A stretch of DNA of 64,000 nt, from the NCBI RefSeq assembly GCF_951230155.1, contig NZ_CATNVD010000013.1, positions 62,001 through 126,000 of the forward strand, given 5' to 3'. Shown piece after piece: positions 31,806-49,553 of the stretch; positions within the stretch are counted from its first letter, which is position 1, and every line of letters begins with the position of its first letter. The notes under the pieces are model-generated. The model saw only the letters and a list, made by a program, of their open reading frames with translations, had not been told where the DNA came from and searched no databases. Source of the stretch: Parablautia sp. Marseille-Q6255. Its GTDB lineage: Bacteria; Bacillota; Clostridia; Lachnospirales; Lachnospiraceae. The position numbers were made by a program, and so were the translations under genes.

Positions 31806-32030
31806 ATGTCTGATTTCCAACACTCCGGTTGCCGATGCAGCTGTCATTCTTCTGACAGAACAGACGCAATATACCGCTGTCTGGCTGAGTCAGATGCCCC
31901 TCTGGCCATGGGATACGTGCCATGCCAGTCCTGGGGCGTCACTTATGATCTCTGTCATGCCCTGCATACCGGAACCATCTTTCCAGAACTGCACAAGCCA
32001 TTTTGCGGGAAAGGAGGAAAATGTCGATGA
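31806..32030 (+). CDS. cotJA: Spore coat protein CotJA
   Basis: 74 residues. After a Cys-rich start, the core PLAMGYVPCQSWGVTYDL and GTIFPELHKPFCGK matches the CotJA family, which assembles with CotJC into the spore coat. Shine-Dalgarno AAAGGAG precedes the ATG by about five bases. The stop overlaps the cotJB start (ATGA). First gene of cotJABC. Confidence 0.92.
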   Translation: MSDFQHSGCRCSCHSSDRTDAIYRCLAESDAPLAMGYVPCQSWGVTYDLCHALHTGTIFPELHKPFCGKGGKCR

Positions 32031-32686
32031 ACCGAACCAATTACAACAATATGAACTGCCGGACCAGAAGCATGCCGCGATGCAATGAAATGCCACGGTG
32101 CAACGACATGCCGCGATGCAATGAAATGCCACGGTGCAACGACATGCCGCGATGCAATGAAATACCACGATGCAACGACATGCCACGATGCAATGAGATG
32201 CCGCGATGCAACGACATGCCACGATGCAATGACATGCCGCGGTGCAGCGACATGCCACGGCGCAACGACATGACGCGATGCAATGAAATGCCGCAGCGGG
32301 ACGTCTGCACCTGTCCCCCGGCAGGCCATACTTCCCCCACGTGCACAGACTCAGGAGACCGGAATACTCCATGTACAGGTAACCCCCGCCCCTGTGACTG
32401 CCGCGAGGAGCAAATAGAGATCCCCACCGGCGACCGCAGGAAACTCTTCACTTTTATAAATGAGGTCAGCTTTGCCGTTTACGAAGCACTGTTGTATCTC
32501 GATACACACCCGGACTGCGAAGAAGCGCTTCATTATTTTAAAAAATACAATCAGCTCCGCAATCGCGCGCTTAAAGCATATGAGCATGCATACGGACCCC
32601 TCGTCATTTCTGTAGCCGACGAGTCCTGCAGCAGGTCATGGGAATGGATGAACCAGCCATGGCCATGGGAAGGAGGTATGTGTTAA
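32027..32686 (+). CDS. cotJB: Spore coat protein CotJB with a long MPRCN-repeat N-terminal extension
   Basis: 219 residues, against about 80-90 in ordinary CotJB. The C-terminal ~85 residues are standard: LFTFINEVSFAVYEALLYLD, HPDCEEALHYF, YEHAYGPL and the ending WPWEGG. The N-terminal half holds twelve tandem hexapeptides MPRCN(E/D) with few substitutions, then a Cys/Pro-rich linker (CTCPPAGH, CTGNPRPCDC). The start at MNRTNYNN is chosen because it gives an ATGA overlap with cotJA and GGAGG nine bases upstream; an ATG two codons earlier is also possible. The Cys/Arg repeat could cross-link in the coat or bind metal. Confidence 0.9.
   Translation: MNRTNYNNMNCRTRSMPRCNEMPRCNDMPRCNEMPRCNDMPRCNEIPRCNDMPRCNEMPRCNDMPRCNDMPRCSDMPRRNDMTRCNEMPQRDVCTCPPAGHTSPTCTDSGDRNTPCTGNPRPCDCREEQIEIPTGDRRKLFTFINEVSFAVYEALLYLDTHPDCEEALHYFKKYNQLRNRALKAYEHAYGPLVISVADESCSRSWEWMNQPWPWEGGMC
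32072..32287 (+). repeat. 18-bp tandem repeat (12 units) inside cotJB
   Basis: Twelve in-frame 18-bp units encoding MPRCNE or MPRCND, alternating so that a 36-bp higher-order unit is visible (ATGCCGCGATGCAATGAA followed by ATGCCACGGTGCAACGAC). Later units carry substitutions (IPRCND, MPRCSD, MPRRND, MTRCNE). The count probably varies between strains. Confidence 0.95.
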
Positions 32687-32689: not shown

Positions 32690-32803
32690 ATGTGGAATTA
32701 TGAAAAAAGACTGCAGTACCCGGTCAATATCAAAACGCCAAATGCAAAAATCGCACAGATCATCATGAGTCAGTACGGTGGCCCGTATTGCAGTAACCTA
32801 TAG
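32690..32803 (+). pseudogene. cotJC: CotJC (manganese-catalase-like spore coat protein), 5' fragment cut by prophage insertion
   Basis: Codes for MWNYEKRLQYPVNIKTPNAK and continues to MSQYGGP, exactly the conserved CotJC start; intact CotJC is about 180-190 residues. After codon 32 the reading becomes YCSNL and stops, unlike the family (QYGGPDGE...). All phage genes begin directly afterwards, so this is the left prophage junction. Only three bases separate it from the cotJB stop. The 3' part should lie beyond the right edge of the window. Confidence 0.85.
32771..32785 (+). other. Probable attL core region in cotJC
   Basis: The last codons that match CotJC are Gln-Tyr-Gly-Gly-Pro (CAGTACGGTGGCCCG); homology stops immediately after. 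The crossover must lie within or next to this stretch. The exact core needs the other junction. Confidence 0.55.
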
Positions 32804-32861
32804 GAATCAGAAATGTAATTTTATGCAATAATTATACCAAAGAAATCAGATATGTCCATAC

Positions 32862-32951
32862 TTATTTTATGATCGCTGAGAACCCAGCTGCTTTCAGGTG
32901 CTTCATCAACATCTCTACACGAAGAGAGCGGTTGCCCGCTCCCTGTGTGAT
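32862..32951 (-). pseudogene. Remnant of an endolysin 3' end (SPOR-like tail)
   Basis: Reads ...RSLRVEMLMKHLKAAGFSA and ends IIK, stop. The last ~17 codons match the end of the endolysin at 34650 (KALVKRLKAAGFSAIIK), and the nucleotide match extends about 50 bases including the stop. No start is present. This is a direct repeat left by recombination or by a former lysin gene at the element end. The rest of 32804-32966 holds nothing recognisable. Confidence 0.75.
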
Positions 32952-32966
32952 TGCTTTTATTATGTA

Positions 32967-33443
32967 TTATGCCGTTCTACGTAAGCATCGTCTTCTACTT
33001 TCCTTACATTCGTGAGCAATAAAAAGCAATGTATCTTCAACTTCTGCCTTTACCCCAAGATATTGTACATATGAAGCTCTGCCCTGTTGAAACATCAGCT
33101 CCAAATTTACTAAATTGATTCTCCCTCTACGCTGCATAAATAAATCCGCTTCATGACTGCCTTGCTTCTGCATCTCCCATATATCATTAAGCTTCTCTGA
33201 CAATTCACTTATCATTTGACAGTGTTTATAATTACATTTGCTCAGCATAATTAAATTTTTACATTTTAAAACACCAAGCGGAATACCCATATATCGCGAG
33301 ATTCCTGCCAGTTCAGTATCTGTCAAATCTTCTTTTCCTGCAAAAACCGCCTTCATCAACTCTCCAGTCACATTCGCAAAATCGGCATAGGCAGGTGTTC
33401 CATATGGATGATAGTTTCGTAACTCCATTAAATTAATCTGCAT
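32967..33443 (-). CDS. Phage protein of unknown function downstream of ant
   Basis: 158 residues, soluble, mostly helical, ending in an Arg-rich tail. I do not recognise a domain. Its ATG shares a base with the ant stop (TGATG) and GGGGAGG lies seven bases upstream, so it is translated together with the antirepressor and probably acts in the same switch. Confidence 0.75.
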   Translation of the reverse strand: MQINLMELRNYHPYGTPAYADFANVTGELMKAVFAGKEDLTDTELAGISRYMGIPLGVLKCKNLIMLSKCNYKHCQMISELSEKLNDIWEMQKQGSHEADLFMQRRGRINLVNLELMFQQGRASYVQYLGVKAEVEDTLLFIAHECKESRRRCLRRTA

Positions 33444-34219
33444 CACGCCACCTCCCCTGCGGAGATACCGTACTTAATAGCCATTTCTTTTATGATTGCT
33501 ATGTAGCCCTCTATCAACTTTGGATCATCAGCAATTACATCAAGCTGATTTAATTTGTCCAGCTTCGACTTGCACATACCATTCAGGGCATTTGTCTTTT
33601 TCTTATTCGCCAACCGAATATTTAAAGCTACATGCATGCGCTCCTCTAATGTTTTATACGACTGTTCACGCACCGCCTTGATGTGCTCCACTCCGCCGAG
33701 TTCAAAAGCAATCTTATTGATGATATTACTGCTTTCCTTTCTCCATGCATTTGGTCTTAGAGCAACCACATCTTTGATGGAATCCACTTTACTGTCCAGT
33801 TCCGCCAGCTTCTGATCGTGTTCCTTCTGCTTCATTTCCATATTGATTAGTAACTGGAGCTGTGGAGAAAACTCTGCCAGATCAGACTTCGCAGATTTGT
33901 ATTTCTTCTCCACTTGGATAAAATACCGGCGCACCTGTTTTCCTTTCTCATTGCGCTCCAACATTGCCATTTCTTTGGCGGTGTCGAGTTTGATGATATA
34001 CTCCTTAATCCTCCCACCGTTTTCTAAATTTTTAGAAATCGCTTCAAAGTCCTCATTTTCTGCCGCTTCACAGTCATTCAAACGATTCTTAATCCAATCT
34101 GCAAACTTACTCCTTACTTCCAGTACCGCATGCAACTCTGTGCCATAAACAACCTTTTCGCCTGCACTTGTCTCGTAAACTGGTACTAACTCATTTTCAA
34201 TAACTTTTAAGCTTTGCAT
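33443..34219 (-). CDS. AntA/AntB-type antirepressor with ORF6C-like C-terminus
   Basis: 258 residues. The N-terminal ~100 residues are an AntA/AntB antirepressor domain (VYGTELHAVLEVRSKFADWI, ENGGRIKEYIIKLDTAKEM, RRYFIQVEKKY). A coiled-coil linker (about 110-160) leads to a C-terminal ORF6C-like domain with the typical NIINKIAFELGG and AVREQSYKTLEERMHV segments. Such proteins bind and inactivate prophage repressors. The start MQSLKVIENEL follows AAAGGAG; the longer frame upstream lacks a site. It is preceded by an Arc-like gene and faced by an antisense RNA candidate. Confidence 0.9.
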   Translation of the reverse strand: MQSLKVIENELVPVYETSAGEKVVYGTELHAVLEVRSKFADWIKNRLNDCEAAENEDFEAISKNLENGGRIKEYIIKLDTAKEMAMLERNEKGKQVRRYFIQVEKKYKSAKSDLAEFSPQLQLLINMEMKQKEHDQKLAELDSKVDSIKDVVALRPNAWRKESSNIINKIAFELGGVEHIKAVREQSYKTLEERMHVALNIRLANKKKTNALNGMCKSKLDKLNQLDVIADDPKLIEGYIAIIKEMAIKYGISAGEVA

Positions 34220-34244
34220 AATAAAAATCTCCTTTCGATTTATC

Positions 34245-34273
34245 TTGAAAGAAGCCCCATTCTGCATTATAAT
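34245..34273 (+). promoter_or_regulatory. Strong plus-strand promoter between ant and the RHH gene
   Basis: TTGAAA (34245-34250), exactly 17 bases, TATAAT (34268-34273). It faces away from ant, toward the RHH gene, opposite to all surrounding phage genes, and leads straight into a short terminated transcript. Confidence 0.75.
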
Positions 34274-34279
34274 ATTTAC

Positions 34280-34347
34280 AGAAGGAAACTTCTTTGGTGG
34301 AAACGCTCGTTGACTTGGTAGGTTGGTCGGGCGTTTCTTATTTTTTT
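34280..34347 (+). ncRNA. Predicted ~68-nt antisense RNA (Sar-like) in the RHH-ant intercistronic region
   Basis: Starts about seven bases after the TATAAT. The first element is a tight hairpin AGAAG-GAAA-CTTCT (34280-34293). It ends in a terminator: GAAACGC-CG arm (34300-34309) pairing with CG-GCGTTTC (34328-34337), followed by TTATTTTTTT (34338-34347). The RNA is complementary to the intercistronic mRNA between the RHH and ant genes and to the last RHH codons. It does not reach the ant ribosome-binding site (about 34229-34236), unlike P22 Sar. No ORF with a start is present in it. Prediction only. Confidence 0.6.
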
Positions 34348-34520
34348 AGTTCATCGTCGATTTTTTCATTGAGCCATTCTGACTTTGTCTTTTTCTGTTC
34401 GGATAATTTCTGTTCAAACTTCAACATTTTTTCTTTATCCACAGCTACGCTAAACGTTTTTTGTCTTTCTCTTCTGGCTTTCATGTAATCGGCTCTGCTT
34501 TTCTCCGCGATTATTCTCAC
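34338..34520 (-). CDS. Arc-like ribbon-helix-helix regulator
   Basis: 60 residues. The C-terminal part fits a ribbon-helix-helix: strand KTFSVAVDKE, helix MLKFEQKLSEQKK, then TKSEWLNEKIDDEL. Arc of P22 is a similar-sized RHH repressor of ant. The reading frame opens at a GTG with AAAGAGG directly before it; an internal ATG at 34484 is the alternative, so the exact start is uncertain. It is the first gene after a promoter flanked by repeated GTTACGCGT sites, consistent with autorepression. It is followed by ant on the same strand. Confidence 0.65.
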   Translation of the reverse strand: MRIIAEKSRADYMKARRERQKTFSVAVDKEKMLKFEQKLSEQKKTKSEWLNEKIDDELKK

Positions 34521-34528
34521 CTCTTTTC

Positions 34529-34573
34529 GTTACGCGTTACATATAATATATTTGTGTTACGCGTAATTGTCAA
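34529..34573 (-). promoter_or_regulatory. Promoter of the RHH-ant operon with paired GTTACGCGT operator-like sites
   Basis: Minus strand TTGACA (34568-34573), 17 bases, TATATT (34545-34550). One repeat, a perfect palindrome TTACGCGTAA, sits at 34557-34566 in the spacer. A second copy of GTTACGCGT at 34529-34537 lies downstream of the -10. The two start 27 bases apart (34529 and 34556), flanking the -10 as expected for a repressor site pair. Confidence 0.7.
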
Positions 34574-34611
34574 GAGGTTTTTCAAAATTTCCCCGTCCTA
34601 CCTACGGAATC

Positions 34612-34640
34612 AAAAAGAGCGCAGCATTTCGCTACGCCCT
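34612..34640 (-). terminator. Terminator after the endolysin gene
   Basis: Minus strand: GGGCGTAGC, loop GAAAT, GCTGCGCTC, followed by TTTTTG; nine pairs with G-U wobbles. Confidence 0.8.
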
Positions 34641-34649
34641 AAAATATGT

Positions 34650-36641
34650 TTATTTTATAATCGCTGAAAATCCAGCTGCTTTCAGGCGTTTTACCAACGC
34701 TTTGGCGTTTTTACGCACACTAAACACGCCACACTGGACCACCCATTGAGCATCGCGCTTTTTAATCAGCGCATCGAATCCGGCTTTCTTCAGCTTTCTG
34801 AACAGTTTCTCTGCGTTTGCCTTTACCGCAAATACTCCCGCCTGCACGATATACTCGTTGCTGCTCGCACGCCGGCGGATGATGTATCCGACACGCTGGT
34901 TGTCATACTGGCCGTCACCGTACCAGCTCTTGTAGGTTGCACCTTCGCCGGATCCTTTGCAGTAGGCATGGCCCGCGTCGTACCACTTACCGCTTCCGGC
35001 ATAGATGTTTGTGTGCTGCATCGTTACATATGTCACGATGTCACCCGGCTGCAGGTCGCCCGATGTGATCAGCTGTTTGACTGTCTTGTTGCCGATCTTA
35101 ATCAGATCACAAGTCTTTGTGACGGCTGCTTTTGTACCTGCTCCCCATGAGATTGTACCACCGAGTTTGCCATAAAAGATGCCGGTATCCTGTGGAATCA
35201 AACCTGCCTCTTTTAATGCCCAACGCGCAAGTAAAGCGCAGTTGCAGGCTCTCTTTCCTTTTTTCAGTGCCTTGTTCCACTGCTCCTCGAGATACTTTGA
35301 CGGGTTCCGGTATTCCCAACTCTTTCCCGCTGCAATGTCTGCTTTAAGCTGCTTCTGGAACACCTTGCACACTGCGATAATATCACCGCTGATCTGCGCC
35401 GCCGGCGGATAGATCTGTGTACCGGACTCATCGTATACTCTGTATCCCGGATGATCGTCCGCACACTTTTTAGCCTTTGTCAGGTTGTGATAAGCTCCGA
35501 TCTGGCTCTTTGCATCCGCCCACGACTTGCGTACGCGGTACCACTGCTGATCTGGAGTGTCTGGCAGGATCTCTCCGGATGCCTGATCGTATTTGTCCAG
35601 ATCAAAACGCTCAATGATATTGCAGATCTTATCAACGTAATTGACATCTGTCGCATAGCCGCCGCGCTTAATCAACTCAATCTGATCGCGGTAGTTTTTG
35701 CAGTCCTGGATACCATCGTAGCGCAGCTTACTTCCATTCTGAGCGCCAAGCAGATATGCGCAGCGATCGGCAATGCTGTCCTCAATGCACGGATATCTTC
35801 TAAAATCGGCGTAGATGTAGTACGTGTTACCGGAGGCATCCTGCTCCGGCGTGCGGATATTTACCTTGCTCTTGCCATCCCATGTGCTGCCCGGCCATGT
35901 ATTGCCCGACAGAGTTGTCTTCATTCCGCACACGTTATTTGCTTTCTTCGCGAGCTCCGTGGTGCAGTATCCGCTCTCCAAGATCGTCTGCGCCGCACAG
36001 ACAGAGGCAAATAGGTCATTCTTCTCGGCGATCGGGCGGCTGATTTCAAGGAGTCTTGCCGCGGCTGCCGTCTCGGACAGACCTGCAAACTCTGATGTCT
36101 GCGTACCTGTGGTTGCTTCCTGCTCCCCGGTCAGACGGCTCTTGAATTCATCCCACGTCCATGCAGTCTTATATTTATTGTTGTGTACATACGGTGCCGG
36201 GCAGGTCTTATTTACGATGTCGTAATGGCGCAGAACATGATCTGCCGGAATACCATTTTCTCGCATAAGCTTCTGTACAAGCCATACGCATGCTTCCTGT
36301 GTCTCTTTCGTGAAATACCACTTCTTATCCTCTGCGCTGGCAGAATTGCCGTCACACTTGCAGCACATCTCAATACTGATCGTATTTGCGTTTCGGGCTT
36401 CCGGATGTTTTTGTTTGTACACTCCTGCCGTGCCTACCGCCCAGACAACTGCATCAAGACTGCACCGCTGATAGATTGTGCCGTCCCAGTAAATGTAAAA
36501 GTGTGCGCCTGATCCATCCGGACTCAGATCGTGATTCTGTCCGACCACACCTAGATAGTGCACTGCAATATATTTCTTCTTGTTTCCCCACTGCGGCACT
36601 CTGTTCTTGCTTACTGCATTTATAATTTTTCTTTCGCTCAT
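34650..36641 (-). CDS. Multidomain endolysin: amidase + glucosaminidase + NlpC/P60-like + SPOR
   Basis: 663 residues. Residues 1-170 are an N-acetylmuramoyl-L-alanine amidase (PGRP/Amidase_2): IAVHYLGV, GAHFYIYWDGTIYQ, TISIEMCC, LRHYDIVNKTCPAP. Residues ~195-350 look like a glucosaminidase (FASVCAAQTILESGYCTTEL, NVCGMKTT, FRRYPCIEDSI). A YRVRKSWADAKSQIGAY linker repeat follows (~370-420). Residues ~450-600 resemble a cysteine peptidase with CNCALLARWAL and PGDIVTYVTMQHTNIYAG. The C-terminus is a SPOR-like pair (YIVQAGVFAVKANAEKL and WVVQCGVFSVRKNAKAL). Three lytic activities in one protein is unusual. Holin genes lie directly upstream. Confidence 0.9.
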   Translation of the reverse strand: MSERKIINAVSKNRVPQWGNKKKYIAVHYLGVVGQNHDLSPDGSGAHFYIYWDGTIYQRCSLDAVVWAVGTAGVYKQKHPEARNANTISIEMCCKCDGNSASAEDKKWYFTKETQEACVWLVQKLMRENGIPADHVLRHYDIVNKTCPAPYVHNNKYKTAWTWDEFKSRLTGEQEATTGTQTSEFAGLSETAAAARLLEISRPIAEKNDLFASVCAAQTILESGYCTTELAKKANNVCGMKTTLSGNTWPGSTWDGKSKVNIRTPEQDASGNTYYIYADFRRYPCIEDSIADRCAYLLGAQNGSKLRYDGIQDCKNYRDQIELIKRGGYATDVNYVDKICNIIERFDLDKYDQASGEILPDTPDQQWYRVRKSWADAKSQIGAYHNLTKAKKCADDHPGYRVYDESGTQIYPPAAQISGDIIAVCKVFQKQLKADIAAGKSWEYRNPSKYLEEQWNKALKKGKRACNCALLARWALKEAGLIPQDTGIFYGKLGGTISWGAGTKAAVTKTCDLIKIGNKTVKQLITSGDLQPGDIVTYVTMQHTNIYAGSGKWYDAGHAYCKGSGEGATYKSWYGDGQYDNQRVGYIIRRRASSNEYIVQAGVFAVKANAEKLFRKLKKAGFDALIKKRDAQWVVQCGVFSVRKNAKALVKRLKAAGFSAIIK

Positions 36642-36705
36642 TGTGTCTCCTTTCTTCTATTCTGCATCGTAAAAATGGCGGCTCATTCGCCGCCACTCTA
36701 CATCG

Positions 36706-36999
36706 CTATTCCGATTTTCCTGCCTGTTTGATAATCTGATTTACGTATGTACTCAATCCAGCTACCAGTATGCCCTGCACGATCGCCGTAAATATCGCCA
36801 TCGCGATCTCCTGCGGCGACGACATCGGGCACGTCGCCACCACCCAGATACCCGACAGCACGATACCAAGCATACCTAATGCAGCGGGTATATACTTGTC
36901 GGTAAACGCCTGTGTGTGCTTCAGTCCTGCGCCGATAAAGTACAGTACGACTGCCAGTATTAACAGTTCCGGTTTTACGTAATTTAAAATCTGTTCCAT
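36706..36999 (-). CDS. Phage holin
   Basis: 97 residues with three hydrophobic segments: ELLILAVVLYFIGAGL (11-26), YIPAALGMLGIVLSGIWVVA (36-55) and a weaker one near 65-85 (AIFTAIVQGILVAGLSTYV). A charged C-terminus follows. Size, helices and position immediately before the endolysin identify it as the holin that opens the membrane at lysis. GGAGGGG precedes the ATG and overlaps the end of the upstream gene. Confidence 0.85.
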   Translation of the reverse strand: MEQILNYVKPELLILAVVLYFIGAGLKHTQAFTDKYIPAALGMLGIVLSGIWVVATCPMSSPQEIAMAIFTAIVQGILVAGLSTYVNQIIKQAGKSE

Positions 37000-37001
37000 C
37001 T

Positions 37002-37313
37002 CTACCCCTCCATATCATGCGCCTGTTTATTCAGGTGCTTTTCTATTTTGTTGATCGCTTCCGTCACAGGTCCATTGCAGCCCTGTTCTCGCAGCCCTTT
37101 TAAACAGGCAAGCAGTCCATAAGTGATCAGGCACTGCTCCTCGTTAATTGCTTTTATGTCCTCTTCATGCGCGGATCGTAGCTTCTTGATTTCTTCGCCC
37201 TGCAGCTTAGGCTGCATAATAAATCTGATTATCGCAGCAATCAGCCCTATGATCACGCCTGCGGCAGTGATCAGAGCTGCGGCTTTAATAATTGTGTCTA
37301 CATCAATATACAT
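37002..37313 (-). CDS. Small membrane protein of the lysis cassette
   Basis: 103 residues: one N-terminal membrane helix (AALITAAGVIIGLIAAIIRFI, about 12-33), then a helical, charged cytoplasmic part (EEIKKLRSAHEEDIKAINEE). Two residues separate its stop from the holin start. The design resembles holin-associated or XhlA/antiholin-type proteins but I cannot assign it firmly. The ~110 bases upstream contain a strong Shine-Dalgarno in front of only six codons (37352-37372), probably a gene remnant. Confidence 0.7.
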   Translation of the reverse strand: MYIDVDTIIKAAALITAAGVIIGLIAAIIRFIMQPKLQGEEIKKLRSAHEEDIKAINEEQCLITYGLLACLKGLREQGCNGPVTEAINKIEKHLNKQAHDMEG

Positions 37314-37425
37314 TATGTCTTATCCTTTCCGGTTATTATTATTTCAACTTTTTAAGTCGGTGCTCTAATCATAAAAAACCTCCCTCCTGGTAAAATATCG
37401 GAAAAAGTAATTGGCTTTTAATTAT

Positions 37426-38376
37426 CTACTTAATAATCCAACATCCACATACCGCAATATTACCTGCCGGGGCCACGGTTTTTGCAGATGTATAATTTTC
37501 ATACACCGTTACTGTCACAGTACGGCCTTGCACATATGCTACTGCACGCTTTGTAAAGTCCGCTCCTGCGACCGTATATGTAGTCAATGGCATAAACATA
37601 AAAGGATTCAGTGCGTCATCTTTAGTTGTTACAAAATTCATCGGCTCTGGACTTTTGGCTGTACACGTTGCCCTGAAAAATATTACTTTACCAACACGAA
37701 TAGCTTTGTAATCAATTGCAGCCCCCCAGTTAAACTTGTTCGTGACGTCCTCGATATCTGCTTTATTCTTGTTTAGTTTATCAAGTTCGCCCTGGATGTC
37801 TTTCCCCTGCCGTCCGTCCAACACCGTTCCTTCTTTGGTTGTGGCCCGATTATTTACGATTTCCGGCACATTTGATAAATCTCCATAGTCTCCAGTAAAT
37901 GCTATATTTTTAAGATCCGCAAACCACTTCTTGATTTTTCCAAACGTGGTTGCAGTACTCTCACCCGTATTGATGTTCTCACGAGTTTCCGCTTCAGAAA
38001 ACTTCACGGTTTTCCCTGAGATATCTCCCAACACATACGCACCTGCGGCCTCAGCCGCCTTGCGGGCTGCTTCTGCTGCCAGATCAGCTGCTTCTTTCGC
38101 CTCGTTCGCCGCATTTGTCGCTGCAATCGAGTTTGTAATGGCTGTCCTAATCTCCTGCGTAAATGCCTGCTGGATCTCTTCTGTGGCATTTTGCAGTTCA
38201 TTCTCAAAATCTTCATACGATACGATTCGCTTCACGACTCCCGGTGCAAAGCAAACATAAAGTGTCCGCCCCGTAGGACTCACCGGATCTCCAGACGTCA
38301 CGACTGCAAGTTCCGCCGTAACCATCTTGTTCGGGTCAAAATCTTTAAAATCTCCGTGTCTGTGCTGTATTGCCAT
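37426..38376 (-). CDS. Tail/baseplate receptor-binding-type protein
   Basis: 316 residues. N-terminal anchor (MAIQHRHGDFKDFDPNKM), an Ala/Glu-rich coiled coil at about 85-115 (ATNAANEAKEAADLAAEAAR), a fibre-like middle (DLSNVPEIVNNRATTKEG), then a beta-rich C-terminal head with many aromatic residues. Position after the tail-tip protein and before the lysis cassette fits a fibre or upper baseplate protein that contacts the host surface. The TAA of the preceding gene abuts the ATG, with GGAGG upstream. Confidence 0.75.
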   Translation of the reverse strand: MAIQHRHGDFKDFDPNKMVTAELAVVTSGDPVSPTGRTLYVCFAPGVVKRIVSYEDFENELQNATEEIQQAFTQEIRTAITNSIAATNAANEAKEAADLAAEAARKAAEAAGAYVLGDISGKTVKFSEAETRENINTGESTATTFGKIKKWFADLKNIAFTGDYGDLSNVPEIVNNRATTKEGTVLDGRQGKDIQGELDKLNKNKADIEDVTNKFNWGAAIDYKAIRVGKVIFFRATCTAKSPEPMNFVTTKDDALNPFMFMPLTTYTVAGADFTKRAVAYVQGRTVTVTVYENYTSAKTVAPAGNIAVCGCWIIK

Positions 38377-38574
38377 TTAATTGTCCTCCAGTTTACCGGT
38401 AATCATAGACTCGATAGCCTTAATATTTTCCAGCAGATCCCCAACAGCATAAAAGGTTGGTGATTTGGCATTTTTTCTGATGATTTTTCCATTTTCATCT
38501 GCCTGATTGTATGTTACCGATATTGCGTACTCACCCCCGTGATTCATGATACTGATAATTTTGATAGCTTTCAT
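38377..38574 (-). CDS. Small phage tail-region protein
   Basis: 65 residues, soluble, no recognised domain (GGEYAISVTYNQADENGK, then a helical end). Its start lies 44 bases inside the end of the tail-tip gene with GGAGGAG upstream, and its stop touches the next ATG. Such tight packing supports a real gene. Function unknown. Confidence 0.7.
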   Translation of the reverse strand: MKAIKIISIMNHGGEYAISVTYNQADENGKIIRKNAKSPTFYAVGDLLENIKAIESMITGKLEDN

Positions 38575-41254
38575 TTAACAGCTCCTCCTCTTCTTTATTT
38601 ATCATGTATACTTCTTGTTTCAGATTGAATTCTATGTCATCGTCATATTCTTTTAACATTGCGGTTTCCAAGCTTTCCATCTCCGCATCATATTGCTCAA
38701 CTTTACTGTTTTCTTCATTTTGCAAGTCAACTTCTTCCATCCTTTTATTTTCCGAATTGATTTCCGTACATTTTATAGACCAAGAAAACTTCAGGCCGGC
38801 AGTTCCTTTCACGACAAAAAAAGAAGGCTCTTTCAAATCTACCCACAGATCGCCTTGTCCCTCTTTTTGTAAAAACACCTGATATTCGATGTCCGTATTA
38901 ACCGCAGTCAAAAACACTGGATCAATATCCACATAGGCAACTCCTCTTTCGTTCGTAACACCTGTTCCGACATCTTCGCAAACCGGCATTGCACTTCTTC
39001 CCATATAGATTTCTCGCAAAACAGGGTTATTGTAATTCGCGGAATTTATATTGATATTTTTCACAAAATCTTTTGCCCGTACTTCTTTTGTTACGTCCAA
39101 ATTTCCGGTTATGCCAGATGATTTGCCAGAGCTAAATCCGCCCGCCAAATTAGCTTTTTGACTGGATGATAAGCCTCCCGTAGATACACTATTTGCTGAC
39201 ATGTCACCAGCTGTTAATGTGCGCGGAATCAATACCCTGTCTCTTGTGATGTTGATTTCGGACCTCCCCTGTATACCGATGTCGACCGAATAAAATCCGT
39301 TTACACCGATACCAGCCAAGTATGAATCCCCTGATATTAAAACATATTCTCCACCTGCATACACAAGGGCATCGGTAAGGTGAGATATGACCGGAGATAT
39401 ACTGCCTGCGTAATCATCATAGTTAAGATCTGCTTCCTGATAAAATGTGATATTCCCTTGTTTTATATTCATATATCCGGAATTGTCTTGTTTTTCTGTG
39501 ATGAATTCCGAACCCTCAATTTTGCTCCCGGAAAAATCAGCCGCCTGCAGATTGCCGGAGAATGTGCCTCCTGCTGCTTGCAGATTGCCAGAGAACGTAC
39601 CCTTGTTAAAATTGACCCCGGTATTATCAATGTACCCAATCTGCCTTCCTGTCGCATCTAATATCCTAAGTTTTCCATTTCCATTGCTGATGCCGCCCAA
39701 CGTCAGCGTTCCGCCGTGTGCCCAATCAAAGTTGATGCCGATCACAGACAGCATATTGAGTACTGCATTCCCATTGCTGTCAAATCCTGCCTTCCACGTT
39801 GTCGATGAATCGGTGCCACGATAATTTTCTGTCACCCAAAATCCATCAATACCGGACTTGTACACGATCTTAGACTCCGACAACTTGGGCTTATCGTGCC
39901 GGTACGCCAGTATACTTCCGTCTGCCTGCTTTACTGTTGTCGCATAAAATCCCATCGTATTCGCGGCGAGCTGGTTCATGTTCTGGACGGCAATGTCGTA
40001 AGCATCCAGCTTTCGCCCTGTTTCTTGATTTGTCTTCGCGATAATACGAGTCTGGGCGTTATATTTCGTGTAATTTTTCTCTGTCGGCGTTTCCGCGGAA
40101 CAAGCTATGCTTTGTTTTCCGCCAAGCGAAAACGTCGTATTTGTAACCAATGTATAAATTACCGGTGACTGCTCTGAAACTGATACCAGCGCACAATCGC
40201 CTGCCTCAATCGCAGGATCTGACTGCGCAGAAATCGTCATCGGGCGAAACGCATTATAAACCAGCTTTGCCCCAACGTGCCGTGCCACAGCTTTCACATC
40301 TGTATCACTTATGATTAAAGGATTGTTTTCCAGTACAATCATATAGCCTTCTTTTCCATATACTGCTTCCGGCGCTGATTCAGATCCTGCCTTCAGCCCA
40401 ATCACCTTTACTCCTGTAATAACTATATCATCCGTATTAATATCTTTAGACTGCAGATCATGAAAATGATGATAGTCCGACATTGTTGCGAATCCATCAT
40501 AATATACATCTCCGGTATCCCATGGCATAAATGCGCCGCCATGTAAATCATCGCCAGTCGAATACGGCATATCCTTATCAAAAATTCCGCCCCAAATATT
40601 TACATCGTTATCGAATGCATACCAGCCAAACTGCAGCTTATCTAACCGGTCAATCCGCGCATAGCAGCCCATGATCTGAGCAGCATGCGATATGACATCC
40701 CGAAATGTCAGTGCCTCATCCGATGGTCTGGAGGAGACAATGTACTTACTGTTCTGCACTGTGCTCGTATCAAATGCCATCTGACAGCACGTGCACGCAT
40801 CGCGGATAATATCTAACAATGTCGCCGGATACTGCAAGCTGCTTTCACTGTATGGTCGGTCAAAAAACAACATACTATCGTACGCTGTGATAGAAATTGT
40901 TTCTACTCCGACTGCCTTCACAATGCGGAATACACCCTTTCTTAATATCTCCCAGCTACCGTCTGCAAGCTTCAGGCCGATGTCGGCGACAATGTTCGCG
41001 CCCTCAAATACATATCCGTTAAACTTTCCATCGAAGTTACTCAGTGTAATTGAGTATTCCTTTATGATTGCAGCTCCGATCTGAAACTTACCGGATTCCG
41101 TAGTGGCATCATTGACCATATAGGCGATCACGTCATCGAGCGACAACTGAAGTTTTCTGCCGTCTGAAAATGTGATCGTATCTCGAATGCAAAATTCTCG
41201 ATTCCCCACATTCCCCGCGATCATTTCTTTATATGCTTTGCTCGTATGAATCAT
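38531..41254 (-). CDS. Tail-tip / tail-associated protein
   Basis: 907 residues. The N-terminal ~380 residues are like phage tail-spike-base (gp27/Tal-like) domains (TITFSDGRKLQLSLDDV, FDGKFNGYVFEGANIVADIG). The middle has fibre-like repeats (NFNKGTFSGNLQAAGGTFSG, NLQAADFSGSKI), then a C-terminal acidic helical tail (about 830-907, rich in Glu and Gln). Position right after the tape measure and DUF6711-like genes fits a tail-tip protein that starts DNA injection. No peptidase signature is obvious. Confidence 0.8.
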   Translation of the reverse strand: MIHTSKAYKEMIAGNVGNREFCIRDTITFSDGRKLQLSLDDVIAYMVNDATTESGKFQIGAAIIKEYSITLSNFDGKFNGYVFEGANIVADIGLKLADGSWEILRKGVFRIVKAVGVETISITAYDSMLFFDRPYSESSLQYPATLLDIIRDACTCCQMAFDTSTVQNSKYIVSSRPSDEALTFRDVISHAAQIMGCYARIDRLDKLQFGWYAFDNDVNIWGGIFDKDMPYSTGDDLHGGAFMPWDTGDVYYDGFATMSDYHHFHDLQSKDINTDDIVITGVKVIGLKAGSESAPEAVYGKEGYMIVLENNPLIISDTDVKAVARHVGAKLVYNAFRPMTISAQSDPAIEAGDCALVSVSEQSPVIYTLVTNTTFSLGGKQSIACSAETPTEKNYTKYNAQTRIIAKTNQETGRKLDAYDIAVQNMNQLAANTMGFYATTVKQADGSILAYRHDKPKLSESKIVYKSGIDGFWVTENYRGTDSSTTWKAGFDSNGNAVLNMLSVIGINFDWAHGGTLTLGGISNGNGKLRILDATGRQIGYIDNTGVNFNKGTFSGNLQAAGGTFSGNLQAADFSGSKIEGSEFITEKQDNSGYMNIKQGNITFYQEADLNYDDYAGSISPVISHLTDALVYAGGEYVLISGDSYLAGIGVNGFYSVDIGIQGRSEINITRDRVLIPRTLTAGDMSANSVSTGGLSSSQKANLAGGFSSGKSSGITGNLDVTKEVRAKDFVKNININSANYNNPVLREIYMGRSAMPVCEDVGTGVTNERGVAYVDIDPVFLTAVNTDIEYQVFLQKEGQGDLWVDLKEPSFFVVKGTAGLKFSWSIKCTEINSENKRMEEVDLQNEENSKVEQYDAEMESLETAMLKEYDDDIEFNLKQEVYMINKEEEELLNESYQNYQYHESRG

Positions 41255-41258
41255 GTTC

Positions 41259-41621
41259 TCACCTCTGTATTACATCAACTGACACGCTACGGTACCAGTA
41301 ATGCCCATCTCCAATGTCTCCTAAAATATCTTTTGATAATGTTCCTCGATAGGATTCAATCGTGATATCTATCCCGTCGTCTCGAAAAGTAAACGGGAAA
41401 AATCCGGCGATCAATCGGCTTTTAATGAGTCTCACGTCTTCTTCTGTGAGGTATTCCCATTTGATTCCGACATTCTTTTTTTCCGAGATCACATCTCCAA
41501 CCATGCGTCCTGATAACGTTCGACCGGTATCAGATGTCCAGATGATCTCATCTGATACGCTGATCGACGTCGGCGCCGGAAGCACGACATTCCCAGATTT
41601 TAAAATTTCTCCTTTTTTCAT
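41259..41621 (-). CDS. DUF6711-like tail protein
   Basis: 120 residues: GNVVLPAPTSISVSDEIIW, TGRTLSGRMVGDV, KKNVGIKWEYLTEEDVRLI, SVSVDVIQR. This matches the small beta-rich tail proteins (DUF6711) found between tape measure and tail-tip genes. It may act as a short distal-tail equivalent. Four bases separate it from the tail-tip start. Confidence 0.75.
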   Translation of the reverse strand: MKKGEILKSGNVVLPAPTSISVSDEIIWTSDTGRTLSGRMVGDVISEKKNVGIKWEYLTEEDVRLIKSRLIAGFFPFTFRDDGIDITIESYRGTLSKDILGDIGDGHYWYRSVSVDVIQR

Positions 41622-41629
41622 CCTGCCTC

Positions 41630-44497
41630 CTATATTTCTACAGTATTGAATCGCCGGTCAATAACCGTCTGCGCCATACGCTGCAATGTTGCCAGCCGCT
41701 CTCCGTCAATATTAAATCCGATGGACTCCAGGGCAGCAATGATCCGCATAACTGCATTATTCAATATAGACTCCAACTCTTCACGCGTAATACCATTCGG
41801 ATTTGCACGACGCAATGCATCATCCACCATCGCCTGCAGCTTTCCTTCCGGTGCTACAAACTCACCCTGATGCCGGTTGTCACCGATCATGGCAAGCTGC
41901 GGTGCGTTTTTCTTGACGTATGCACCCTGAGCAAGATAAGGAATCTGCGGAGCTTTCCATGTTGGTACGTTAAATCCTACCGACGTGTACCCCGTTAAAT
42001 CCTGTAACCATCCAGGGAGATCTATGCTGATCGTGTTAAGTGCATTCGCAACGCCATTCACCATAGTCTGTATGCCCCGCAAAAAAGCATTTACAAATCC
42101 CAGAATAGCGTTGATCGGCGCTTTAATGATATTTTTAATGCTGTTCCACACCGTTCTTGTCTTTTCTTTGACGGCATTCCATACATTCGAAATCGTAGTC
42201 TTTATTCCGTCAAATACAGTTTCTGCAGTTGTTCTTAGCCCGGTCCAAACACCAGTAACGGTTTCTTTAATACCCGACCAGATATTTGATGCCTTGGTCT
42301 TTACGCCGTCCCATACAGTACCGATCGTATCCTTAACAGCATTGAATATTGCTTTTGCAGTTGTGCTGATTCCATTCCAGACTGTCGATAGAACAGATTT
42401 AATCGTATTCCATACGGTCAATGCTACTGTTTTGATTGCTTCCCAAAGTTTTCCCAAAAATGCTTTGAGACCATTAAAAATCTCAATTGCATTTCTCTTG
42501 ATATTTTCCCATGTCCGCTTTAGGAATTTTGAAACTTCGTCCCAATTTTGCCACAGCAAAACGCCTGCCGCAATAAAAGCACCTATCGCCAGTACTACTG
42601 GGTTAAATCCACCTGCAAGAACAGAGAGCCCGTGCTTCAATAATGTCAAAGCACCAGACACACTTTTCACCATCGAAATGACATTGAATCCTGCCTGAAC
42701 AAAAGAAGCTATTTGCGTCACAATTGGAGCAAGTTTCCATGCCGCCAAAAATGATATGACGATTGTCGTCATCACTTGAATAACACCTGGATTCTCTGCA
42801 CACCACGAAGAAAAGCTTTGCATCGCCGTATTGATGCCATCCCATACTTGCAGAAAAATTCCACCTGTCCACGCTGCGAGAGGCTGTAGCACATTATCCC
42901 AGAACCACTGGAACAAGGGCTGCAAAGCTGTCAAAATCTCATTAAAGGCACCGGTTGAAATGCTTAAGGTGTCAAGAAATCTCGGCACAACCTCATTCGC
43001 GGTCCATGTACCAAGTGGAACGAGTACGTTCTGCCAAAACCACAAAAGACCTTCGCCTACTTTGACAGCAAACGGAGCGAGTGCGTCCCACAATCTGCGC
43101 AGAGACGAGCTAATCTTGTCAAAATTGACTTTCATCAACCCATTATTCAATGCATTGACGAAATCCGGAATTCCTTTTCCGAGCGTCCATTTTCCGACTG
43201 GCACCAGAAATCTTTCGTAAAAGTCTTTCAGGCTTCCCCAGGCAAACGATCCGAGCCGTGCAAGCCCCTGATTCCAGAGGTTTTTAAGAGCATCCGTAGC
43301 CGGTTTTGCCAAGTTCACGATGTTCTGGAACATCTTTGTGATTTTACTGTCTACCTCATCGATGACAGTCTTGCCCTGCGCCAGACTGCCGAAATCCATT
43401 GCCGATCCAACAGCTCCGCCGCCCGCACTCCCAGTTCCGCCCCCAGAGGAACCACTATCAGATTCTGAGACCGGTTCATTCAGTTTATTGACTTTGTCAA
43501 AGCCCATTAGAGCGCGCATTTCTTTTGCCGCCTTTTTTGCAGCTGTCCCTACTCCCTTTGTAGCATTTGACAGTCCAGATGCAGCATCACTTGCACCGTC
43601 CAGTCCGCTCGCTGCCGTATCAGCAACAGCTCCCAGATCGGCAACCGGCGCAGCCGCAGAAGCACCGCTGCTTTTCTTTCCGGTAATTAGCTCCGTAAAA
43701 GCCTTAAAAGCATTTGCAAGCGTGATAAGTTTCCCGATCACGGTATTTACAACCTTGATGATCGGCGTGAACAGGTTTATCAGCCCCTGCCCTATCGTTG
43801 CTTTCAGCGATTCAAATTGAAGTCTCAGAACCCTTACCTGGTTTGCCCATGAACCTGATGATCTTGCAAAATCTCCCGAAGCTGCCGAAAGCTGCTGCTG
43901 TACGAATGAATACCGCAGCGCAACTTTTTCAGCCTCAGACATCGCCTGCGTGGTCTTGCCGAAGCCATTCGCCATCGCATATGCATCAAGTGCGTTCTGC
44001 GTCATAACAACGCCGAGTTCCTTAAGCGACTCTGTCTCACCTGTGAAAACTGATTTCAGCTTTGTATATGCCTCGTCCTGACTGATGTTGTAGAACGACG
44101 CCACATCACCTGCAAGTCCTGTCAGCGTGCTTCCCATGTCATAGGCGGCTTTTTCGGAGAATCCGAACACCTTTGCCATAGCGCCGAAAGTTCCTGTATA
44201 ACGCTTTGCCATCGTCTCTGACAGACCGAAGCTTCCTGCTGCTGACTTCGCAAATTTATCAACCTGCGCAGTCATACGTGGGAACGTCACATCTACGACA
44301 TTTTGCACCTCTTGCAAGTCTGAACCAAGCTCAATGCAGGATTTTCCGAAGTCTGCAAGTTTTTTTACTCCGAACGCAGCAGCCAGAGCAATTCCTGCTT
44401 TTTTCGCTAATCTGGTAATCCCAGACATTTGTTTGTTAAATTGATTTTGATTAACGACCAGATCCAGACCGATCTCGCCCACGCTTGTAGCGCTCAC
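41630..44497 (-). CDS. Tail tape measure protein
   Basis: 955 residues: SATSVGEIGLDLVVNQNQF start, helical N-terminus, Ala-rich linker near 270-360, hydrophobic helices near 575-640, and a run of about nine 22-residue-type repeats near 665-790 with the pattern W-(N/D/S)-x-I/V-K-x-x-(A/V) (TVWNGISTTAKAIF, TVWDGVKTKASNIW, NVWNAVKEKTRTVW). Its length sets tail length; by the usual scaling of about 0.15 nm per residue the tail would be roughly 140 nm (inference). Overlaps the upstream chaperone frame by four bases. Confidence 0.93.
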   Translation of the reverse strand: MSATSVGEIGLDLVVNQNQFNKQMSGITRLAKKAGIALAAAFGVKKLADFGKSCIELGSDLQEVQNVVDVTFPRMTAQVDKFAKSAAGSFGLSETMAKRYTGTFGAMAKVFGFSEKAAYDMGSTLTGLAGDVASFYNISQDEAYTKLKSVFTGETESLKELGVVMTQNALDAYAMANGFGKTTQAMSEAEKVALRYSFVQQQLSAASGDFARSSGSWANQVRVLRLQFESLKATIGQGLINLFTPIIKVVNTVIGKLITLANAFKAFTELITGKKSSGASAAAPVADLGAVADTAASGLDGASDAASGLSNATKGVGTAAKKAAKEMRALMGFDKVNKLNEPVSESDSGSSGGGTGSAGGGAVGSAMDFGSLAQGKTVIDEVDSKITKMFQNIVNLAKPATDALKNLWNQGLARLGSFAWGSLKDFYERFLVPVGKWTLGKGIPDFVNALNNGLMKVNFDKISSSLRRLWDALAPFAVKVGEGLLWFWQNVLVPLGTWTANEVVPRFLDTLSISTGAFNEILTALQPLFQWFWDNVLQPLAAWTGGIFLQVWDGINTAMQSFSSWCAENPGVIQVMTTIVISFLAAWKLAPIVTQIASFVQAGFNVISMVKSVSGALTLLKHGLSVLAGGFNPVVLAIGAFIAAGVLLWQNWDEVSKFLKRTWENIKRNAIEIFNGLKAFLGKLWEAIKTVALTVWNTIKSVLSTVWNGISTTAKAIFNAVKDTIGTVWDGVKTKASNIWSGIKETVTGVWTGLRTTAETVFDGIKTTISNVWNAVKEKTRTVWNSIKNIIKAPINAILGFVNAFLRGIQTMVNGVANALNTISIDLPGWLQDLTGYTSVGFNVPTWKAPQIPYLAQGAYVKKNAPQLAMIGDNRHQGEFVAPEGKLQAMVDDALRRANPNGITREELESILNNAVMRIIAALESIGFNIDGERLATLQRMAQTVIDRRFNTVEI

Positions 44498-44859
44498 GTA
44501 TCTCTCTCACCTCCAGCCATTTTTATAAAAGCAGTTTTGAAGCCTTCCAATATTCTGTCCATATCTTCTTGCTTCACCTGTTTTGCCTGCCTGCTTCTCC
44601 ACGCGTTACGAATTCGCCTTTGATCTTTTGTAAAATGCTTTAATACCTCTTTATCGTCCTCGGCTCGGATCGCGACGATCCGGCCAAGAGCCGTGTCCGG
44701 TCCGAGTCCGACAAGCAGATCGCGAAATTCGCTCCACTTCATCCCTACAGGCAATTCTTTTGATAAACGAATCCCGTACTGCGATTGAAACGATGATACG
44801 ATCAGATCAAAGTCTTCGTTCAGGTCGTAGTACGGGTCGCTACTCTCCCTGTGTATCTT
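44494..44859 (-). CDS. Gp15-type tail assembly chaperone extension (probably reached by frameshift)
   Basis: 121 residues of open frame: YYDLNEDFDLIVSSFQSQYG, KWSEFRDLLVGLGPDT, IVAIRAEDD. This is the Gp15-like C-terminal partner seen between the tail tube and tape measure genes. No ATG or Shine-Dalgarno fits its beginning; the frame is entered from the upstream chaperone gene at AUG-GGG-G-AAG (44866-44857), one base forward. A fused product ALVMG-KIHRESSDPYYDL would result, analogous to lambda G/GT. Start coordinate is therefore the first codon after the shift. Confidence 0.7.
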   Translation of the reverse strand, partial: KIHRESSDPYYDLNEDFDLIVSSFQSQYGIRLSKELPVGMKWSEFRDLLVGLGPDTALGRIVAIRAEDDKEVLKHFTKDQRRIRNAWRSRQAKQVKQEDMDRILEGFKTAFIKMAGGERDT

Positions 44860-45145
44860 CCCCCATGACAAGTGCCATTGCTTCCTGCACAATAGCCATC
44901 AGAGACGACGCGGCAAGCTTCTTACCGTCTTTTTTCAGATTGCATATTGCCTTAATGTCTTTCGGCTTAAAGATCAGGTTCAGTGCTTCCATGACTGCCT
45001 GCAGATCTTCCTTGCTATTAAATACACCCATCAGGCGCAGCATTGTTTCTGCATCCGAATTCACTTCGACTTCAAGCGTTCCGATTTTCATAACCGGATT
45101 TTCATCGAAACTGAGTTTTTCTGTGATATCTACTACTTTTGCCAT
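44840..45145 (-). CDS. Tail assembly chaperone (G-type)
   Basis: 101 residues: MAKVVDITEKLSFDENPVMK, LEVEVNSDAETMLRLMGVF, helical remainder, ending VMGEDTQGE. Position and size match the short tail-assembly chaperone that coats the tape measure protein. AAGGAG precedes the ATG. The run of five G before its last eight codons is the likely slip site for the longer product. Confidence 0.8.
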   Translation of the reverse strand: MAKVVDITEKLSFDENPVMKIGTLEVEVNSDAETMLRLMGVFNSKEDLQAVMEALNLIFKPKDIKAICNLKKDGKKLAASSLMAIVQEAMALVMGEDTQGE

Positions 45146-45159
45146 AGCCTATCTCCTTT

Positions 45160-45606
45160 TCATCCCTTCGGTGTAACGGTTGGTTTTCCGTTGCTCATGA
45201 TCTCGAATTCCAATGGCGCTACTGCCGTAGAATCTCCTGCCCCTATATTTGTTACATTCACCACTGCTCCCGGGAACTCTACCTTTGTTCCATCCGGGAA
45301 TGTCCATTGAAATGATTTCTCGGACTTTCGACCGTTCTCGAACGCCAATCCGGCGATCAGGTCATTTCCTGCGTCTCCTACATTCCTTTTTGCTGTGACG
45401 GAAATCGTAACGCCCTTTCCGGTCAGTAAGCGACGAACCCATCCTTCTGTATCGAACGGTGTCCATTCTTCGATATTGTTATCGAAAGCTACGCTAAAAG
45501 TCTCGCAGTCCGCTATGTTTGCATACGATGCCGGACCTTCTGCTGACGCAGTGTCCACCTGAAACTGGTTCTCGTAGCATGGATATACTCCTGTCTTTCC
45601 TGCCAT
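45160..45606 (-). CDS. Major tail tube protein
   Basis: 148 residues, beta-rich: GVYPCYENQFQVDTASAEG, VAFDNNIEEWTPFDTEGWV, GVTISVTAKRNVGD, and a final domain FEIMSNGKPTVTPKG. Such sequences form the hexameric tube of siphovirus tails. Good Shine-Dalgarno (AAAGGAG). Directly upstream of the chaperone pair, as usual. Confidence 0.82.
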   Translation of the reverse strand: MAGKTGVYPCYENQFQVDTASAEGPASYANIADCETFSVAFDNNIEEWTPFDTEGWVRRLLTGKGVTISVTAKRNVGDAGNDLIAGLAFENGRKSEKSFQWTFPDGTKVEFPGAVVNVTNIGAGDSTAVAPLEFEIMSNGKPTVTPKG

Positions 45607-45609
45607 ATG

Positions 45610-46011
45610 TTATTCTCCTTTCGCATAAATAAAAGCCGCCTCTATGACCATTTCGTAGATTCCGGAATCATCCGTACCAACATCCTGTATCTCATAAAGC
45701 GGCTGGATAAATTTAATTGTCTCATTGTTAATCTTTGCTTCTCTCGCAGCCGTCAGAGCCTTAAATAAAGCTGTAGCGGCCTTTTCTGTATCTCTTGGAG
45801 ACTTGTTCCAATGCACCAGAAGGGTGACGTATTTCGTGCCGTAGGACTCCAGAGAGGCACCTCCAATAGCCGTCTTATAGGCACGCTGATGCTTGCTGTG
45901 ATACACTCCAATGGTTTTATCCGGTTTGGCATCCAGTTTCCCCATATAAACCTTTTTTGGCTCTGTAATATTCAGAGAAGCAATATAGTCTCTTATATCT
46001 GCCAGTGTCAT
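45610..46011 (-). CDS. Tail terminator/completion-type protein (phage 'minor capsid' family)
   Basis: 133 residues, alpha/beta: YIASLNITEPKKVYMGKLD, a conserved YVTLLVHWNKSPRDTEKAA core, YEIQDVGTDDSGIYEMVI. Its place just before the tail tube gene and its size fit the head-tail joining terminator. It overlaps the upstream gene by four bases. Confidence 0.7.
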   Translation of the reverse strand: MTLADIRDYIASLNITEPKKVYMGKLDAKPDKTIGVYHSKHQRAYKTAIGGASLESYGTKYVTLLVHWNKSPRDTEKAATALFKALTAAREAKINNETIKFIQPLYEIQDVGTDDSGIYEMVIEAAFIYAKGE

Positions 46012-46391
46012 ATACCTGTCAGCCTCCTGTAGATGTTCTTAAATGCTTTCGCTGCAAAATCAGCCTGCGATCCACCCGGCAGCCAGTCCTCATACCACCT
46101 TCCACGCGCATTTGGGTTTTCATCTTTCTGGAAGTGATATTCGGGGTGAAAATACAGGCGGCGCGCATAAGGCGTACTGGAAACAATAGATACTTTCCCT
46201 TTGCTACTGTCAGAATAATCTACAAAAGTGCTTTCATTTTGAAGATTTCCAGTATCCCGCGGAAATACCTGCGCCTGCACCACTTCGGTATGCAGCGCTT
46301 CCGCTGTCTGCTCCAAAGCTGTAACCTGCGCCTGTGTGAGCTGCTGAAGCTTCGGAAAATTCATCCTGATCTTAGACGTAACTTTTATCAT
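46008..46391 (-). CDS. Head-tail joining protein (minor capsid 2 / HK97 gp10-like)
   Basis: 127 residues: helical N-terminus (LTQAQVTALEQTAEALHTEV), then VFPRDTGNLQNESTFVD and STPYARRLYFHPEYHF, the conserved core of this connector family that binds between head and tail. Overlaps neighbours by ATGA on both sides. Confidence 0.78.
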   Translation of the reverse strand: MIKVTSKIRMNFPKLQQLTQAQVTALEQTAEALHTEVVQAQVFPRDTGNLQNESTFVDYSDSSKGKVSIVSSTPYARRLYFHPEYHFQKDENPNARGRWYEDWLPGGSQADFAAKAFKNIYRRLTGI

Positions 46392-46726
46392 ATCAGTAGT
46401 ACCTCCGTGTAATTCACAGTCCCATCTGGGTTCCTTGCTTTTCGTCCTTGCAGAATCCGGCGCTTTACTCCGAAAATTTCGGCTTCCCCGCCTGATATGA
46501 TGGGTAAATCAGGGCATATATCACACGGGAACAGCGCAGATCCGGTAATCTCTATCAGCTTCTTTTGTGCCGTGAGTACCGTCCGCGCCTTATCCTGATA
46601 GTTGCAGCATCCGGCATACGTTATCGGCGGTAACGGCTCGCCATACTCATTCAATCCCTCACGCGAAATCGAAAGACGAATCTCCGTCCTACAAAGTTTT
46701 TTCGGTACCAGACATGGATATTTCAC
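46388..46726 (-). CDS. Minor capsid 1-type head completion protein
   Basis: 112 residues starting at a GTG (MKYPCLVPKKLCRTEIRLSI) that has GAGGTG about seven bases upstream and lies five bases after the preceding stop; the longer frame upstream overlaps that gene. Features: YGEPLPPITYAGCCNYQDK, ITGSALFPCDICPDLP. Member of a connector block of four small genes. Confidence 0.72.
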   Translation of the reverse strand: MKYPCLVPKKLCRTEIRLSISREGLNEYGEPLPPITYAGCCNYQDKARTVLTAQKKLIEITGSALFPCDICPDLPIISGGEAEIFGVKRRILQGRKARNPDGTVNYTEVLLI

Positions 46727-46731
46727 AGTTA

Positions 46732-47118: not shown

Positions 47119-47119
47119 A

Positions 47120-47380: not shown

Positions 47381-47395
47381 ACTTTATACCTCCTA

Positions 47396-48352: not shown

Positions 48353-48357
48353 TGTTT

Positions 48358-48960: not shown

Positions 48961-49010
48961 TATGACACCTTCCTTTCTTCCGGTTCTTTAACGCCTGCCG
49001 AAAAAAGGCG

Positions 49011-49507: not shown

Positions 49508-49522
49508 TATGCGCTCCTTCCT

Positions 49523-49538: not shown

Positions 49539-49553
49539 GCTAAAAATGGATAC

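Follow-up and report, generated by a model that had tools for sequence, protein, structure and literature searches.

The stretch of DNA analysed here (the window; 64,000 nucleotides) corresponds to positions 62001-126000 of contig C13 (NZ_CATNVD010000013.1; contig coordinate = window coordinate + 62000) of a host draft genome of 3.79 Mb in 40 contigs that is 95.67% complete. Profile searches of this genome retrieved Spo0A over its cut-off, as well as sigma-K-family factors with scores below that model's curated cut-off. On the forward strand of the window, cotJA (31806..32030; PF11007, 61.7 bits, E 5.8e-17) and cotJB (32003..32686; PF12652 at residues 147-223, 98.6 bits, E 2.3e-28) were followed by the first 32 codons of cotJC (32690..32785; PF05067 positions 1-32). 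The N-terminal part of the CotJB frame, whose start is putative, was long and contained PRCNEMPRCNDM-type repeats. The frame at 32690-32803 translated to MWNYEKRLQYPVNIKTPNAKIAQIIMSQYGGP, followed by YCSNL and a stop codon, and its cotJC homology ended with ...MSQYGGP at 32785, beyond which lay foreign DNA. The remaining 174 codons were found 41,540 bp downstream on the same strand and in the same frame, as a 3' exon with a natural stop codon (C13:136311-136850, +; identified by PF05067 profile match and translation); the 3' part matched PF05067 positions 27-197 without a stop (C13:136308-136778, 133 bits). The 3' exon scored over the PF05067 cut-off and the 32-residue 5' exon, with cotJA and cotJB upstream of it, below. 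In silico joining of the two flanks at their shared core yielded 206 codons free of stops. A Cu/Zn superoxide dismutase gene (C13:136853-137350, +; PF00080) lay directly 3' of the 3' exon and is thus also parted from the cotJ genes by the element. These two pieces were the only matches to PF05067, the Mn-catalase family, that the profile search found in the host assembly. The preliminary description had noted complete cotJA and cotJB genes, a cotJC homology that breaks off after 32 codons and prophage genes immediately beyond, all of which were borne out by the Pfam matches, the translation and matches to PHROGs; the second, intact cotJC that it had raised as a counter-indication was not found in the 95.67%-complete genome.

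The same 15-bp core, CAGTACGGTGGCCCG, occurred on the forward strand at the left (32771..32785) and right (C13:136311-136325) junctions, and a sporulation gene is cut in frame between direct-repeat cores, as in a gene-intervening element. Because the missing part lies on the same contig and the core is present at both junctions, the split of cotJC is not a matter of chance. The 3' exon starts inside the core, 42 bp beyond the stop codon of a large serine integrase (C13:134817-136268, +) with Resolvase, Recombinase and zinc-ribbon domains (PF00239, PF07508 and PF13408, all over their cut-offs). The 3' part of cotJC was thus located where it had been predicted, at the right prophage end beside a large serine recombinase, and the shared core with the adjoining integrase agrees with the proposal that cotJC serves as the attachment site. 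The inner arm of the left end (32786..32810, +) is an inverted repeat of the integrase-side arm; once the element is circularised, its ends flank the core as inverted repeats (TTCCATAGGTTAC... versus ...GTAACCTATAGGAA), which is the expectation for a serine-integrase attP. Alignment of both ends of 11 elements narrowed the crossover to the GGNGG of codons Gly30-Gly31, where the bases common to all 11 were the two GG. Since these bases do not vary and belong to conserved residues, the site would survive codon drift across species. A palindromic core was considered as the reason for the two orientations in which related elements occur, and was rejected because only the GG dinucleotide was common to all 11 elements.

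The window contains positions 32771..64000 of the 41,540-bp element, which extends past the right window edge. Judging from its gene content, the element is a siphovirus-type temperate prophage. On the reverse strand, we identified an AntA-type antirepressor (33443..34267; PF08346 9.5e-20; phrog_373); endolysin, tail, tape measure, connector, major capsid and scaffold genes, among others (34650..48960; PHROGs); a minor head protein and the portal (49708..53091; phrog_581 and phrog_533; PF06152 and PF03496); the open part of the large terminase (53088..54356; weak PHROGs terminase matches and three-frame reading); the small terminase (54603..55115; phrog_51 1.7e-46); and a helicase, an endonuclease and a VapE-type primase/helicase (59208..63611; PHROGs/Pfam-type profile matches). 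A DNA polymerase is also encoded on the element. Within the minor head gene (49708-51372), an ADP-ribosyltransferase domain (PF03496) was fused to the head protein. A phage repressor (C13:131795-132430, +) was located in the part beyond the window, and a tiny hydrophobic frame that precedes the integrase (positions 12434-12517 of locus L006, C13:122001-141000) resembles type I toxins. Among records of isolated phages, the integrase had a single distant relative (35.9%; E 1e-40 or better), which ties the element to no free phage, while viral contigs contained 139 relatives, 80 of which were kept.

Not all packaging and structural genes were whole. Three-frame reading placed the start of the large terminase, upstream of a Walker A motif spotted by eye, out of frame and with a near-duplicate stretch inside, in keeping with the earlier impression of a broken gene; the frame break may stem from a sequencing error, and no sign of breakage was seen in the other phage proteins scanned, a subset of the element's genes, so that the domesticated state suggested in the preliminary description is one possibility. 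A decaying prophage that has left cotJC as a pseudogene on its way out would fit the broken terminase frame, but it is very improbable given that the integrase, the core sites, the inverted arms and both exons are intact.

The host genome carried a second, related element (C12:151858 and C21:1-5241; L008 and L039) whose integrase is identical at the amino-acid level and which has a small gene of its own, of the type discussed below. It sits at a pseudo-site of another gene, which is itself split over two contigs; we take this gene to be one with a DUF1835-like start and, as far as can be told, it is not a sporulation gene. A draft of 40 contigs in which two elements encode identical integrases might raise the suspicion that the fusion of prophage and cotJC is an assembly error. 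This can practically be dismissed, as the whole element lies on a single contig and the same cut recurs in independent assemblies, including the complete chromosome of Blautia parvula and a 3.5-Mb contig of B. massiliensis.

The integrase was used to search 397 genomes of the family Lachnospiraceae (E 1e-60 or better; at most four candidates scored per genome), which yielded at least 61 places in 51 genomes. The flanks of 48 of these were examined, the remaining 13 being nearly all weaker matches. With some target labels assigned by eye, the gene at the integrase 3' end was cotJC in 26 places, a SpoIID-like/peptidoglycan-binding gene in 15, and a PdaB-like polysaccharide deacetylase (L116), an M23 peptidase (L125) and the gene with the DUF1835-like start in one each; no target gene was recognised in four (L107, L117, L121 and L129). 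A second collection comprised the best 79 of 370 relatives in named genomes, 17 of which overlap the first set in their integrase DNA. In 73 of these 79 loci, one of two genes, cotJC (57) or the SpoIID-like gene (16), was present no more than 1.5 kb from the end of the integrase; the other six had neither and no other recognised target. The cotJC of relatives was cut at the same codons, with the element in either orientation; in a FastTree tree of 112 integrases, the target switched between cotJC and the SpoIID-like gene once, and the orientation within cotJC changed 13 times. The SpoIID-like gene had a sub-threshold SpoIID match and a PG_binding_1 match over the cut-off, and CATAnnn[TA] was present upstream of all nine copies with a findable start (of 13; shuffled mean 2.0). 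From its domains and this upstream motif, the gene looks sporulation-controlled.

The preliminary description had also called for a comparison with related genomes in which cotJC is uninterrupted, and such genomes prevail in the host's genus: an uninterrupted match to PF05067, which also takes in Mn catalases other than CotJC, was found in 34 of 47 genomes (with a stop inside the match in two). The match lacked its first 21-29 positions in the host and in G397, G399, G407, G420 and G421; five genomes had other partial matches and two had none. The clade's integrase adjoined the cotJC cut in the host, G397, G399 and G420, where G397 and G399 match loci of Candidatus Choladousia (L131 and L132; Lachnospiraceae). 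In G421, two contigs (L069 and L070) stop at the cotJC att core, which might be caused by mixed integrated and empty sites in the sample. Element remnants of ~3, 3.4, 9 and 15.9 kb retained the integrase, the small gene and both exons, and the ~3-kb elements consisted of hardly more than the integrase and this ~50-residue gene.

At 43 loci, a cotJC 3' exon lay beside the integrase, and in 26 of these exons the frame stayed open to roughly the natural C-terminus (168-213 codons; 393 in one case). Among the 17 shortened exons, six ended at codon ~136, including that of L173, though this locus was scored as full-length in the recombinase scan, and 11 lost homology at codons ~65-70, two of them near a contig end. 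Scattered decay was rejected as the cause of the short matches, because the breaks fall at two fixed places and other serine recombinases adjoin the break in five of the 17 (L148, L157 and L191 at ~65; L091 and L145 at ~136). The recombinases at codons ~65 and ~136 belong to serine-recombinase clades other than that of the present integrase. At L171, another serine recombinase was present at the far side of the break. A recombinase match in L120 was discounted as a coiled-coil receptor-like frame. No adjoining second recombinase was found for the 12 other shortened exons (L149 and L168 fell outside the scan with too little sequence), and none was present in more than 6.5 kb of sequence at L133 and L170. 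Given these two loci and the short sequence elsewhere, some of the breaks may be permanent losses.

Overall, cotJC was interrupted at three different sites, Gly30-Gly31, ~65-70 and ~136. In the complete circular chromosome of B. parvula (NZ_CP084061.1; L306-L308), the gene was present as four collinear in-frame pieces spread over ~131 kb, with exons at 94.5 kb, 87.6 kb, 6,233 kb and 6,210 kb and core spacings of 6,844, 101,041 and 22,826 bp. Joined at the cores, the four pieces read through in frame for 210 codons. A recombinase was found at one or more ends of each of the three intervals and at both ends of the 101-kb interval, which may therefore be composite. B. parvula also has a second, intact gene of the cotJC type (61% identical), which means that the split copy need not strictly be rebuilt in this species. 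In a Roseburia metagenome-assembled genome, a single contig carried three recombinases and cuts at these same three sites.

Alternatively, these elements could be ordinary temperate phages for which a conserved but dispensable gene serves as the attachment site, with cotJC lost in lysogens and excision on induction only. The nearly complete prophage with repressor and antirepressor would suit such phages, as would the shortened 3' exons with no recombinase in sight, and undecayed exons would also be compatible with fresh insertions. The loss of CotJC may be mild, since insertions in cotCB/cotD of Clostridioides difficile lowered catalase activity but caused no significant coat defect, according to the accessible text of PMC11222575. 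However, the 26 3' exons that reach about their natural end, the confinement of the other 17 breaks to two fixed places, the three different sites within one gene, the retention of integrase, small gene and exons in small remnants, and a second target that also looks sporulation-controlled (CATAnnn[TA] in 9/9 scorable copies of 13) are all at odds with this account, as is the mother-cell-type promoter motif of the small gene described below, and we regard it as unlikely.

In the element of the window, the small gene encodes 53 residues (C13:130388-130546, -). Homologous genes of ~50 residues were found in 31 of 51 loci of the first set, from which nine of the search seeds were drawn, and in 48 of the 79 named loci, on the strand opposite the integrase in 46 of the 48; none was found in the other 31 within the locus sequence covered. 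The host genome contained exactly two, one per integrase copy. The divergence of the small gene follows that of the integrase (Mantel r 0.70, 0/5000 permutations, n=44), which can be explained by shared descent alone. The protein had no match in Pfam or NCBIfam, PHROGs gave one weak match to a function-less family for one of two members, and no functional name occurred across 98 homologue clusters. From its size, linkage and analogy to known systems, the ~50-residue protein is probably an excision/directionality factor.

Promoters recognised by sigma-K carry the elements mACm and CATAnnnTA. The pattern mACm-N16-CATA was present upstream of the small gene in 24 of 48 regions (mean 0.6 and maximum 3 over 200 shuffles) and missing from the other half, and the other spacings tested occurred in at most eight of the 48. 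With a stricter -10, the pattern preceded 23 of 48 small-gene starts, compared with 65 of 1788 control starts from these loci. These figures overstate the significance because the upstream sequences are related and non-independent. A similar promoter pattern was seen in 16 of 33 upstream regions of the first set. The upstream consensus, AACAaGTACAA-C-GT----CATAcaaT, resembles a sigma-K promoter, and its AACAAG also resembles the SpoIIID box of C. difficile (KRTAACARK), as given in the accessible part of PMC5025042. The small gene of the window's element is preceded by AACA-N16-CATAGAAC, with a good -35 and a weak or incomplete -10 that is without the T. The small gene of G399 (L064:2611-2769) is not part of the element but lies downstream of cotJC, and a CATATAGTA motif precedes its start by 26 nt.

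The recurrence of the cut in many species, the mostly undecayed exons and the candidate factor with its mother-cell-type promoter together support restoration of the gene in the mother cell. We therefore consider it likely, on the strength of these genomic patterns, that the element is a sporulation gene-intervening element whose developmental excision rebuilds cotJC. The anatomy of the locus shows that a temperate siphovirus-type prophage entered cotJC by serine-integrase recombination at Gly30-Gly31. Serine integrases normally do not excise alone, which is why the integrase would keep the element in place during growth. The ~50-residue gene upstream of the integrase would be switched on in the sporulating mother cell from a promoter of the sigma-K or sigma-E/SpoIIID type, and its product may serve as the directionality factor. 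Integrase and factor would then recombine attL with attR, the 41.5-kb element would leave as a circle, and the 206-codon cotJC would be restored, with the Cu/Zn superoxide dismutase gene rejoined to the cotJ operon. The germ-line copy in the forespore would retain the prophage.

What was seen in many Lachnospiraceae is the split of cotJC and not its excision. A broader reading, which we hold with slight preference, is that the cotJC of this family is a gene in pieces: one integrase clade with its own family of excision factors would have specialised on mother-cell genes, further clades would use two more sites, and B. parvula would need three or more coordinated mother-cell excisions to join four exons across ~131 kb. 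The printed cases of sporulation rearrangement that we found amount to a handful of separate examples, whereas in the present data elements have repeatedly integrated into one coat gene and into a second gene of sporulation type throughout a major gut family. Annotation would label cotJC as broken in many gut spore-formers, which may be wrong. Phage-sized, remnant and 3-kb elements coexist, and if excision is confirmed, they would form a series from phage to minimal switch, provide a natural test of mother-cell genes as safe harbours for mobile DNA, and supply genome work with a collection of serine integrases, together with their matching sites and probable directionality factors.

Our literature searches, with subscription papers outside their coverage, returned no printed report of an interrupted cotJC, nor a report of a sporulation gene split by multiple elements. 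A term search of the accessible text of PMC10747680, PMC5595907 and PMC4191935 gave no mention of cotJC; the nearest remark, in the part of PMC11222575 that is accessible, places phi027 of C. difficile beside a CotJC-like catalase gene. Other sporulation genes are also interrupted by elements, namely yabG by yin, gerE by gin and spoVFB by vfbin, with serine recombinases named for yin and gin (accessible parts of PMC10747680 and PMC5595907). As described there, yin is unique to one strain, whereas integrases of the present clade occupy one and the same site in many species, and gin is no prophage, unlike the present element. Heterocyst elements of cyanobacteria, such as those in nifD, resemble the proposed system in being excised during differentiation but belong to another cell type and lineage; 10 of 87 interrupted genes contained several elements, and one nifD contained four (PMC4874684, accessible text). 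The skin element of C. difficile relies on the serine recombinase CD1231 and the 72-residue directionality factor CD1234, which is under sigma-E and SpoIIID control with a transcription start 14 bp ahead of the start codon (PMC5025042, accessible part). The present element likewise combines a serine recombinase with a small candidate factor; skin interrupts sigK, whereas the gene cut here encodes a coat enzyme. For SPbeta, which interrupts spsM in Bacillus subtilis, sprA and sprB are sufficient for excision, SprB has 58 residues, and a mother-cell promoter lies directly upstream of sprB, with transcription starting 20 nt ahead of the start codon (PMC4191935, accessible part). Both SPbeta and the present element are phage-sized, lie in a spore-surface gene and carry a serine recombinase and a small factor (a candidate in our case), but the present element targets cotJC, its small protein falls into no named family, many relatives have the reverse orientation and excision is inferred. 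Together, SPbeta and the skin element of C. difficile provide the experimental model for the present element.
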